Shown in pieces: positions 38,440-41,832 of a stretch of DNA of 64,000 nucleotides. This stretch comes from Aldersonia kunmingensis (lineage in GTDB: Bacteria > Actinomycetota > Actinomycetes > Mycobacteriales > Mycobacteriaceae), in contig NZ_LRRB01000111.1 of the NCBI RefSeq assembly GCF_001646865.1, positions 1 to 64,000 on the forward strand. The letters are read 5' to 3'. The notes under the pieces are model-generated. The model searched no databases. It saw nothing but the letters and a program-made list of their open reading frames with translations, and was not told where the DNA came from. The position numbers and the translations under genes were made by a program. Positions within the stretch are counted from its first letter, which is position 1. Each line of letters opens with the position of its first letter.

Positions 38440-38585
38440 GGTGTACCTGCCCTTTGGGGGGATCAGGTTGCTGGCGGGCTTCCGGGCCGCAGCCGGATCG
38501 GAGGATGGTTTCAGCCGCGATCCGCGCCGCCAATCGAATCACGGGCCGTTGTGGTCCGTCGCCGTTCGCGATCGGAGGCTCCGAG

Positions 38586-39410
38586 ATGCGGGGCGCTAAC
38601 GCGCAAAGCATGCGCAGTGACCCGAGGCAGGCCGCCCTGATCGGTGTCCTGCTCGCGCTCGCGGCGGGGAGTTGGCTGGTGGTCGATCGCCGGATGTCGG
38701 GCATGGACCGCGGGCCGGGAACTGATCTGGGGTCGCTGAGTTTCTACGTCAGCGCGTGGGTGGTGATGATGGCCGCGATGATGTTCCCGTCGATCATTCC
38801 CATGGTCGCCGCCTATCAGCGCGTGCAGCAGGCGAACCGAGCCCGCGGCCGCGCCGTGCCCGGTGGTACCTCGGTGTTCGTGGGTGGGTATCTGGTCACC
38901 TGGACATTGTTCGGCCTCGCCGCATACGCGCTGTTCGCGCTCGCGCGCGGACTCGGCGCGACCCCCACCGGCGACCGAGCAGCGCTGTACGTGGCGGGCG
39001 GGGTACTCGTCGGTGCCGGCATCTACCAGGCGACGCCTTTCAAGGACGCGTGCTTGTCACACTGCCGTAGCCCGGTGGCGTTCGTGATGGAGCATTGGCG
39101 CGGCGGAGTTCGCGGCGCCGCCGATATGGGCACGCGGCAAGGACTGTGGTGCATCGGCTGCTGTTGGGCGCTGATGGCGTCGCTGTTCGCGCTCGGCGTG
39201 ATGAGCGTGACGTGGATGCTTCTGGTCACCGCAATGATCGCCGTCGAGAAACTCCTGCCCTCGAAACGGATCGCCAAGACCGCAGTGGCGGTAGTGCTGG
39301 TGACGTTGGGACTGGCGGTCGCCTTCGTGCCCAGTCACATACCGGGCCTTGTCGTCCCGGGTGTCGGCGGAATGGAAGACGAGATGCACATGGACGACAT
39401 GCAGATGTAG
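38586..39410 (+). CDS. DUF2182 membrane protein with Met/His/Asp-rich tail
   Basis: 274 residues with about six to seven hydrophobic segments; the block AWVVMMAAMMFPSIIPMV and the GLWCIGCCWALM segment are hallmarks of DUF2182 (predicted metal-binding membrane proteins). The C-terminus ends MEDEMHMDDMQM, a likely metal (copper-type) ligand cluster. GGAGG lies 7 nt before ATG 38586; longer upstream reading has no SD. It converges on a DUF1326 gene, a pairing often seen. Function is not established. Confidence 0.83.
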   Translation: MRGANAQSMRSDPRQAALIGVLLALAAGSWLVVDRRMSGMDRGPGTDLGSLSFYVSAWVVMMAAMMFPSIIPMVAAYQRVQQANRARGRAVPGGTSVFVGGYLVTWTLFGLAAYALFALARGLGATPTGDRAALYVAGGVLVGAGIYQATPFKDACLSHCRSPVAFVMEHWRGGVRGAADMGTRQGLWCIGCCWALMASLFALGVMSVTWMLLVTAMIAVEKLLPSKRIAKTAVAVVLVTLGLAVAFVPSHIPGLVVPGVGGMEDEMHMDDMQM

Positions 39411-39453
39411 GGCGACATGACCCACCGTTGACCGCTGGTGGTCAGGCCAAGTT

Positions 39454-40062
39454 CTAACCCTGCCAGGCGAACTCGCGGAAGTGCCCGTTCTTCCCGGTGT
39501 TGTCGAACGCCAGCCCGTAGTCGGGATCGTCGTATCTGCCGATGATGCTGCGCGCGATCGGCAGATCGGCGCCCATTGGGTGAAACACGTTGACAATCTT
39601 CATCACTGCCGAGGTGTCGGGCGCGCGCAGGCCTTCCACTTCGAACTCCATGATGTCCGGCACCTCTACCCGCTTGCGGTCGCCATCGGAGGTGAACGCG
39701 ATGGGGACAAACTTGACGCCCAGTTGCTCACCGGTGAATCCGGCGAGCATCTCCGGCGGCCCGCCCTGCGCGCCGGACAGCACCGCACCAAGCGCCTCGC
39801 GCTGCGAATCTTCCGCACGTTCGTCGATGTAGAGGGCCACCCGCCAACCGCCGTCGGCCATCACTGCCGGCGCGTCGACGACCATCACCACGTTGAGGTC
39901 GTCCAGTCGCACTTCGTCGCTGTTGCCCTCACCGATATGCAGGATGAGGGGAACGAGACAGCGATCGTTGTCCGCCGGGCCCTGCATCGACGAAGTGATG
40001 CACGGACACAGGATGTCGCAGTTGCAGTTCTCGAAGTACTCACCTCGAAGTTGCCACGCCAT
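39454..40062 (-). CDS. DUF1326-domain protein
   Basis: 202 residues with the typical Cys-rich N-terminus YFENCNCDILCPC (residues 9-21), which could hold a metal or disulfides, and a beta-rich body with FVPIAFTSDGD. No signal peptide or membrane span. AAGGGAG lies 8 nt before ATG. It converges on the DUF2182 membrane protein gene 43 bp away; the two families commonly neighbour each other, so a joint role is likely but undefined. Confidence 0.82.
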   Translation of the reverse strand: MAWQLRGEYFENCNCDILCPCITSSMQGPADNDRCLVPLILHIGEGNSDEVRLDDLNVVMVVDAPAVMADGGWRVALYIDERAEDSQREALGAVLSGAQGGPPEMLAGFTGEQLGVKFVPIAFTSDGDRKRVEVPDIMEFEVEGLRAPDTSAVMKIVNVFHPMGADLPIARSIIGRYDDPDYGLAFDNTGKNGHFREFAWQG

Positions 40063-41277: not shown

Positions 41278-41832
41278 TCAGCCCAGACCGGCCATCGCTG
41301 CCACGTGGCCGGACGCGCCAACTCCCGTCACGTCATGCGCGTGGCGCCCGGCCTGGTACAACGCCCAGCACATCACTCCGAACGCCGCGGTGTGCACTCC
41401 TGCGCGGACGATGTTCCAGGTCACCCATTTGCTTTCGAAATCCTGCCTGGCCGCGGCGAGCATCGCCGCACTGTCGGAGGGGTCGACCTGGGCCAGGCCG
41501 TTGTTCAACGGGACGTTGATTCCCATCGTGATAGCAAGGGCGAGAACATAGAACGCTGCGGCGACGACAACCCACAGCAGCACCTTCCGGCGGTCCGCGT
41601 CGAGGTGGGTGAGGGCCGCGATGACCGCGAACACCAGTCCGCCGCCGAAGCAGAACGCGAACCACGGATTGAGGATCGCAACGTTGATCTTGTTGAACAC
41701 GTCCACGAACGTTCGGTCGTCCACGTTCGCAAGCGCATTCATCACCGAGTACGCGTACGCCCAGAACAATCCTGCGGTAAGTCCCATGGTGATGATGGCT
41801 CCGATCAGGGAACCGGTACGCAGCGCCGACAT
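41278..41832 (-). CDS. DUF1772 integral membrane protein
   Basis: 184 residues with four hydrophobic segments; LTAGLFWAYAYSVMNAL near the N-terminus and PLNNGLA near residue 110 are characteristic of DUF1772 (anthrone-oxygenase-like) proteins. Divergent from an AraC regulator (41960), with a 127-bp shared promoter, so it is the probable target of that regulator. Function unknown. Confidence 0.8.
   Translation of the reverse strand: MSALRTGSLIGAIITMGLTAGLFWAYAYSVMNALANVDDRTFVDVFNKINVAILNPWFAFCFGGGLVFAVIAALTHLDADRRKVLLWVVVAAAFYVLALAITMGINVPLNNGLAQVDPSDSAAMLAAARQDFESKWVTWNIVRAGVHTAAFGVMCWALYQAGRHAHDVTGVGASGHVAAMAGLG

Follow-up and report, generated by a model that had tools for sequence, protein, structure and literature searches.

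The window analysed here (the whole stretch of 64,000 nucleotides from an Aldersonia kunmingensis contig) carries a convergent pair of genes, 43 bases apart, encoding a PpoB2-family membrane protein and a soluble DUF1326 protein (Table 1). Comparison with other genomes indicates that the two form a real, widespread and little-described pair, a variant of the PpoB2 copper chaperone system in which the partner is not the usual one. A search of the open-licence literature found no paper naming DUF2182 or DUF1326. The membrane protein matches PF09948 with an E-value of 3e-63 (213.6 bits against a curated cut-off of 28.7) and the soluble protein matches PF07040 with an E-value of 8.1e-51 (173.1 bits, cut-off 25). 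The DUF2182/DUF1326 pair described in the first-pass annotation is thus present at its coordinates, with both Pfam scores far above the cut-offs. The same annotation had left the pair without an assigned role, which no longer holds for the membrane partner. The Pfam name for DUF2182 is now PpoB2, described as a "copper chaperone", and, according to an excerpt of PMC2855505, the PpoB2 of Marinomonas mediterranea is the copper chaperone of a tyrosinase, PpoB1, to which it delivers copper specifically and not to another copper oxidase. The Pfam assignment therefore gives the window membrane protein a functional precedent.

Table 1. Positions of the PpoB2/DUF1326 genes and of their sequence features in the window
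Feature	Position	Strand	Remarks
PpoB2-family (DUF2182, PF09948) membrane protein gene	38586..39410	+	ATG to stop, 274 aa
GGAGG, probable ribosome-binding site for PpoB2	38574..38578	+	read in the sequence
PpoB2 predicted first outer loop, residues 38-50	38697..38735	+	13.8% Met in the family; M37 beside and M40 in the loop
PpoB2 MMAAMM, residues 61-66, in TM2	38766..38783	+	two interleaved MxxxM pairs
PpoB2 CLSHC (C156, C160), predicted cytosolic side after TM4	39051..39065	+	model helix 151-161
PpoB2 CIGCC (C189, C192, C193) in TM5	39150..39164	+	conserved Cys
PpoB2 C-terminal tail MEDEMHMDDMQM, predicted outside	39372..39407	+	low-confidence AlphaFold2 helix 261-272
DUF1326 (PF07040) soluble protein gene	39454..40062	-	202 aa
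DUF1326 penta-cysteine site, C13-x-C15-x3-C19-P-C21...C35	39958..40026	-	near-invariant in 136 relatives

The PpoB2 protein ends with GGMEDEMHMDDMQM. The DUF1326 translation starts with MAWQLRGEYFENCNCDILCPC and exhibits NCNCDILCPC inside its N-terminal part. The pair in the window is a mixed one: the closest PpoB2, at locus L045, exhibits 53% identity, and the DUF1326 of the same locus is just 27% identical. A DUF1772/anthrone-oxygenase-like protein is also encoded in the window (41278-41832, minus strand), with a score under the cut-off of the model for the chryseobasin helper ChrI.

Among 151 genomes of the window's family, PpoB2 was found in 16, DUF1326 in 14 and both in 11 (Fisher test, 9e-11). 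The pair is patchily distributed in this family, and the two genes are adjacent in all 11 genomes having both. The corresponding numbers for 246 genomes of the window's phylum, a sample that overlaps with the family sample in some genomes, are 51, 48 and 43 (4e-34), with DUF1326 lying within 3 kb of 52 of the 67 PpoB2 matches. A second phylum, that of Marinobacterium (G403, locus L118), was sampled with 299 genomes: PpoB2 is present in 37, DUF1326 in 31 and both in 31 (1.7e-36), the adjacency holding for 41 of 48 PpoB2 matches and 41 of 45 DUF1326 matches. The proposal that the two families are commonly paired is thus borne out in all three samples.

These three samples are free of bias to the DUF1326-linked branch. 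A further scan of a genome collection used as query an alignment of nine DUF1326-linked PpoB2 sequences, which biases it to that branch, and returned at least 80 loci. Among the matches listed, 75 of 80 have DUF1326 within 251 bases; of the other five, one has it at 2.7 kb and four are without it, two of them on contigs under 5.3 kb. The neighbouring genes occur in every orientation. A tree built from 81 PpoB2 proteins implies at least nine changes of gene order, with the pair kept together throughout. A mirror-tree comparison of PpoB2 and DUF1326 gave a correlation of 0.66, reached in none of 1000 permutations, a value that is uncorrected for species kinship and is no proof of contact. At L044 (7771-8550) the gene beside a DUF1326 without PpoB2 encodes a DUF1942 protein whose C-terminus is rich in Met and Cys, and on the Cupriavidus plasmid pHG1 (L131:8649-8876) the gene of a GDCCVxC (seleno)protein directly follows the pair.

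Where DUF1326 is missing, other genes are found beside PpoB2. In the family sample, each of the six weaker PpoB2 matches has a tyrosinase gene at most 1.5 kb away and none has DUF1326, against no tyrosinase within that distance for the eleven stronger matches. The window PpoB2 has no adjoining tyrosinase, a point that concerns the tyrosinase-linked branch and leaves its profile-based membership in PpoB2 untouched; a second PpoB2 of the same genome, one of the six, does have one (L026, G000:C28:484-2399), both kinds of pair being present in one organism. The phylum sample contains 15 PpoB2 matches without DUF1326 within 3 kb. Ten of their neighbourhoods were fetched, an eleventh is the second PpoB2 just mentioned, and four were left out. 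Tyrosinase adjoins PpoB2 in three of the ten (L199, L201, L204) and DUF899 in one (L196). At L203 PpoB2 is divergent from a gene whose Cys-rich product weakly matches the copper storage protein Csp1 (E-value 6e-6, far below the model cut-off). At L198/L226 it lies within a molybdenum-hydroxylase cluster, and L200, itself a fragment, has a piece of tyrosinase about 3.3 kb off. No clear partner was seen in the neighbourhoods L195, L197 and L202. In the second phylum, four genomes have an above-cut-off PpoB2 and no DUF1326, with tyrosinase (L267, L269) or DUF899 (L268, L270) next door; two further such genomes fall below the cut-off, and an extra PpoB2 copy (L271) has neither tyrosinase nor DUF899 nor DUF1326 beside it.

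DUF899 adjoins PpoB2 at four loci lacking DUF1326 (L196:3831-5373, L079:8651-10771, L268:3498-5125, L270:4244-6957). It was identified by PF05988 in L196 and L079 and by similarity in L268 and L270, and is thioredoxin-like according to a weak AhpC/TSA match. DUF899 is a third partner family of PpoB2. Since PpoB2 genes without DUF1326 are often found beside tyrosinase or DUF899, PpoB2 seems to act as a single membrane module whose cytosolic partners can be exchanged. No obvious signal peptide was seen on the tyrosinases inspected, whose N-termini were read by eye, and none on DUF1326.

The PpoB2 alignment was reduced from 178 to 175 sequences by dropping rows that covered less than 60% of the profile or contained X, and to 145 at 90% redundancy. 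The AlphaFold2 model of PpoB2 (pLDDT 88.9) exhibits seven membrane helices, the choice of crossing helices being our own reading. Its best fold match among solved structures has a Z-score of 5.4, a value that speaks neither for nor against a relative, and a search by sequence found no solved relative of PpoB2 or DUF1326. Averaged over the 145 relatives, the loops on the N-terminal side carry 7.5 K+R and 2.8 D+E and consist of 2.2% Met, and those on the opposite side carry 1.3 K+R and 3.4 D+E and consist of 11.7% Met. From this charge pattern and the AlphaFold2 model we predict an orientation with the N-terminus inside and the C-terminus outside, which would place the Met-rich loops outside. 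In TM2, M65 and M66 are present in all 145 sequences, M61 in 144 and M62 in 116. The cysteines are similarly conserved: C156 in 136, C160 in 144, C189 in 144, C192 in 137 and C193 in 143 of the 145. The conserved putative ligands of PpoB2 are, on this alignment, the MMxAMM of TM2 and the five cysteines, in the membrane, rather than the tail. All five cysteines are found in 127 of 129 DUF1326-linked copies, against none of the seven tyrosinase-linked ones. The latter form one clade (SH-aLRT 97 in a quick tree), and the five-Cys split therefore counts as a single event.

The DUF1326 alignment was treated in the same manner (176 sequences, 170 after dropping, 136 at 90% redundancy). C13 and C15 are each kept in 134 of 134 sequences, C19 and C21 each in 134 of 135, and C35 in 135 of 136. 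The DUF1326 of G133 (L036:8580-9179) has lost the Cys motif in frame, with an apparent frameshift near the start. The AlphaFold2 model of DUF1326 (pLDDT 97.5, pTM 0.92) has the fold of an acetoacetate-decarboxylase-like barrel (Foldseek E-value 9e-5). Its structural alignment with acetoacetate decarboxylases has a Z-score of 10.0 over 154 of 202 residues at 3.5 A, with 8% identity. Membership in that family was considered and rejected: the fold fits, but hhalign gives no profile relation between the two (probability 0.1%), and the 136 DUF1326 proteins have no conserved Lys column, whereas the Lys of the PK motif is invariant in 12 acetoacetate decarboxylase (PF06314) relatives. We therefore do not file DUF1326 with the acetoacetate decarboxylases.

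The first-pass annotation had pictured the C-terminal tail of PpoB2 and the Cys cluster of DUF1326 as complementary sets of metal ligands, a view that loss of both from their families would have refuted. This was not the outcome: the cluster is near-invariant (134-135 of 136) and the tail is partly kept. The letters of the tail are not conserved, and the putative ligands kept in PpoB2 are those in the membrane (M61, M65, M66, C156, C160, C189, C192 and C193). Fewer than eight tail residues are present in 84 of 145 PpoB2 sequences and at least eight in 61; among these 61, 49 contain at least two Met and 43 an MxM or MxxM. At least three Met occur in the last 18 residues of 26 of 145 PpoB2 sequences, against 20 of 1186 neighbouring ORFs, some of which are surely no genes. 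As far as the alignment tells, the Met-rich tail is a feature of one lineage and not part of the core of PpoB2.

What these ligands serve is a matter on which our judgement is evenly balanced: PpoB2 and DUF1326 may be a copper supply pair working as a Met-to-Cys relay, with DUF1326 as the acceptor and probably a copper-dependent client. Copper would be taken up outside by the methionines of the outer loops and of the Met-rich tail, might move by way of MMxAMM (TM2) and CxGCC (TM5) to the inner-side CLxxC, and would be handed to cytosolic DUF1326, whose five cysteines would bind Cu(I). The path through PpoB2 is guesswork, because no solved relative shows it. The analysis shows the pairing, the conserved ligand residues, a predicted topology and fold, and the exchange of DUF1326 for tyrosinase or DUF899 at other loci; we infer copper as the metal, the direction of its movement, its binding and transfer, and any activity of DUF1326. 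Copper, already put forward with a "perhaps" in the first-pass annotation, is the most likely metal, as suggested by the precedent in the family, the Met motif, neighbouring tyrosinases and the locus L224 (1591-4816). At this locus a PpoB2 gene, with no DUF1326 in its vicinity, overlaps the beginning of the gene for a copper-type P-ATPase (TIGR01511, 519.6 bits against a cut-off of 397). A point against a copper supply pair is that the CxCx3CxC arrangement might instead bind Zn or some other soft metal. It is quite improbable, in our view, that PpoB2 and DUF1326 handle a soft metal other than copper in the window's branch, such as zinc or iron, or that the cysteines serve thiol redox chemistry, to which the weak AhpC/TSA match of the DUF899 partner would point; the MMxAMM and the Met-rich outer face of the PpoB2 family fit Cu(I), and the family precedent, in the excerpt of PMC2855505, is copper.

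DUF1326 occupies the place that tyrosinase has in ppoB1-ppoB2, and would therefore be the acceptor and probably the client itself. A role of DUF1326 as a soluble metallochaperone or adaptor, taking copper from PpoB2 and loading enzymes encoded elsewhere, seems to us rather doubtful. Its dense, near-invariant N-terminal Cys cluster, its small size and solubility, and the frequent occurrence of the pair alone, with no enzyme gene beside it, would all suit such a role. However, DUF1326 replaces an enzyme beside PpoB2, and its copies can outnumber PpoB2 (five against one in G175, four against one in G242); these several copies, together with the enzyme-like barrel fold, favour a client over a chaperone. 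On a broader form of the client reading, which we regard as somewhat unlikely, PpoB2 would be a general Cu(I) channel metallating one dedicated cytosolic protein encoded next to it, the clients being exchanged among tyrosinase, DUF1326 and DUF899. In that case DUF1326 would represent a class of cytosolic copper enzymes not recognised so far, an acetoacetate-decarboxylase-like barrel with a copper-thiolate site replacing the Lys.

The wider neighbourhoods count against a copper supply pair insofar as they hold no constant third gene indicating a use of copper and no consistent copper gene. Neighbours were clustered in 108 loci, and 86 close ones on the same strand were scanned with Pfam; neither approach revealed a constant third gene. 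Tyrosinase is the commonest among the 86 (7 of 86), always without DUF1326. A CopA-like ATPase was found at just one of 126 loci searched, 6.6 kb away (L224 was found separately). The latter count also speaks against a role of the pair in copper defence or storage, with DUF1326 sequestering Cu(I) and PpoB2 moving it across the membrane, a role that we regard as quite unlikely. The thiolate-rich site of DUF1326, the patchy distribution, the copper ATPase beside PpoB2 at L224 and the Csp-like protein at L203 agree with such a role, but the known PpoB2, as given in the excerpt of PMC2855505, serves the metallation of one enzyme and not resistance.

Two candidate clients were considered and rejected. 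SBP56/methanethiol oxidase was suggested by L128 and L061, and occurs in 5 of the 151 genomes of the family sample, none with DUF1326. L128 (7548-14190), on a Marinovum plasmid, encodes PpoB2, DUF1326, an acyl-CoA ligase, DmdA, an alcohol dehydrogenase and SBP56 consecutively, its PpoB2 and DUF1326 carrying the annotation "involved in DMSP breakdown"; at L061 SBP56 lies near the pair. CO dehydrogenase was suggested by L226 (3746-14974), where PpoB2 lies between XdhC and a MocA-like gene in a CO-dehydrogenase-like cluster. It was rejected on its AYRGAGR motif, which we take to mark the CO-dehydrogenase-like form without copper. Berberine-bridge-type (BBE) FAD oxidoreductases gave 10 matches near the pair against 2 farther away, three of the 10 having trained the model and three being distant relatives only (E-value about 1e-20). 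Unrelated bacteria carry them near the pair (L205, L207, L208, L084, L087, L129, L200).

Most bacterial copper enzymes are thought to be kept out of the cytosol. If a copper supply pair is the right reading, a widespread membrane protein that seems dedicated to one cytosolic partner, and that has switched partners, would be a route of copper into this compartment, and the uncharacterised families DUF1326 and DUF899 would be likely copper proteins. What had been one DUF next to another would become a case with a definite metal, ligands and an expected phenotype.

Three known systems bear comparison with the window pair. Its PpoB2 belongs, by score, to the same Pfam family as that of the Marinomonas ppoB1-ppoB2 operon (COG5486, PF09948), the likeness being one of family and description. 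Both have an adjacent gene for a soluble partner, to which copper transfer is proposed. In the window this partner is DUF1326 instead of tyrosinase, and the window PpoB2 has the five conserved cysteines, of which one to three are missing in the seven tyrosinase-linked relatives compared. Ctr-type copper importers have a Met-rich outer segment, an MxxxM in TM2 and an inner Cys, and PpoB2 resembles them, in a purely functional comparison, in all three. Unlike Ctr, with its three helices, PpoB2 has seven predicted ones and matches PF09948 only in Pfam, not Ctr. Finally, DUF1326 shares its overall fold with acetoacetate decarboxylases (3cmb, 5upb, 3bgt), from which it differs in sequence (the 8% identity given above) and in having the penta-Cys site in place of their conserved Lys.
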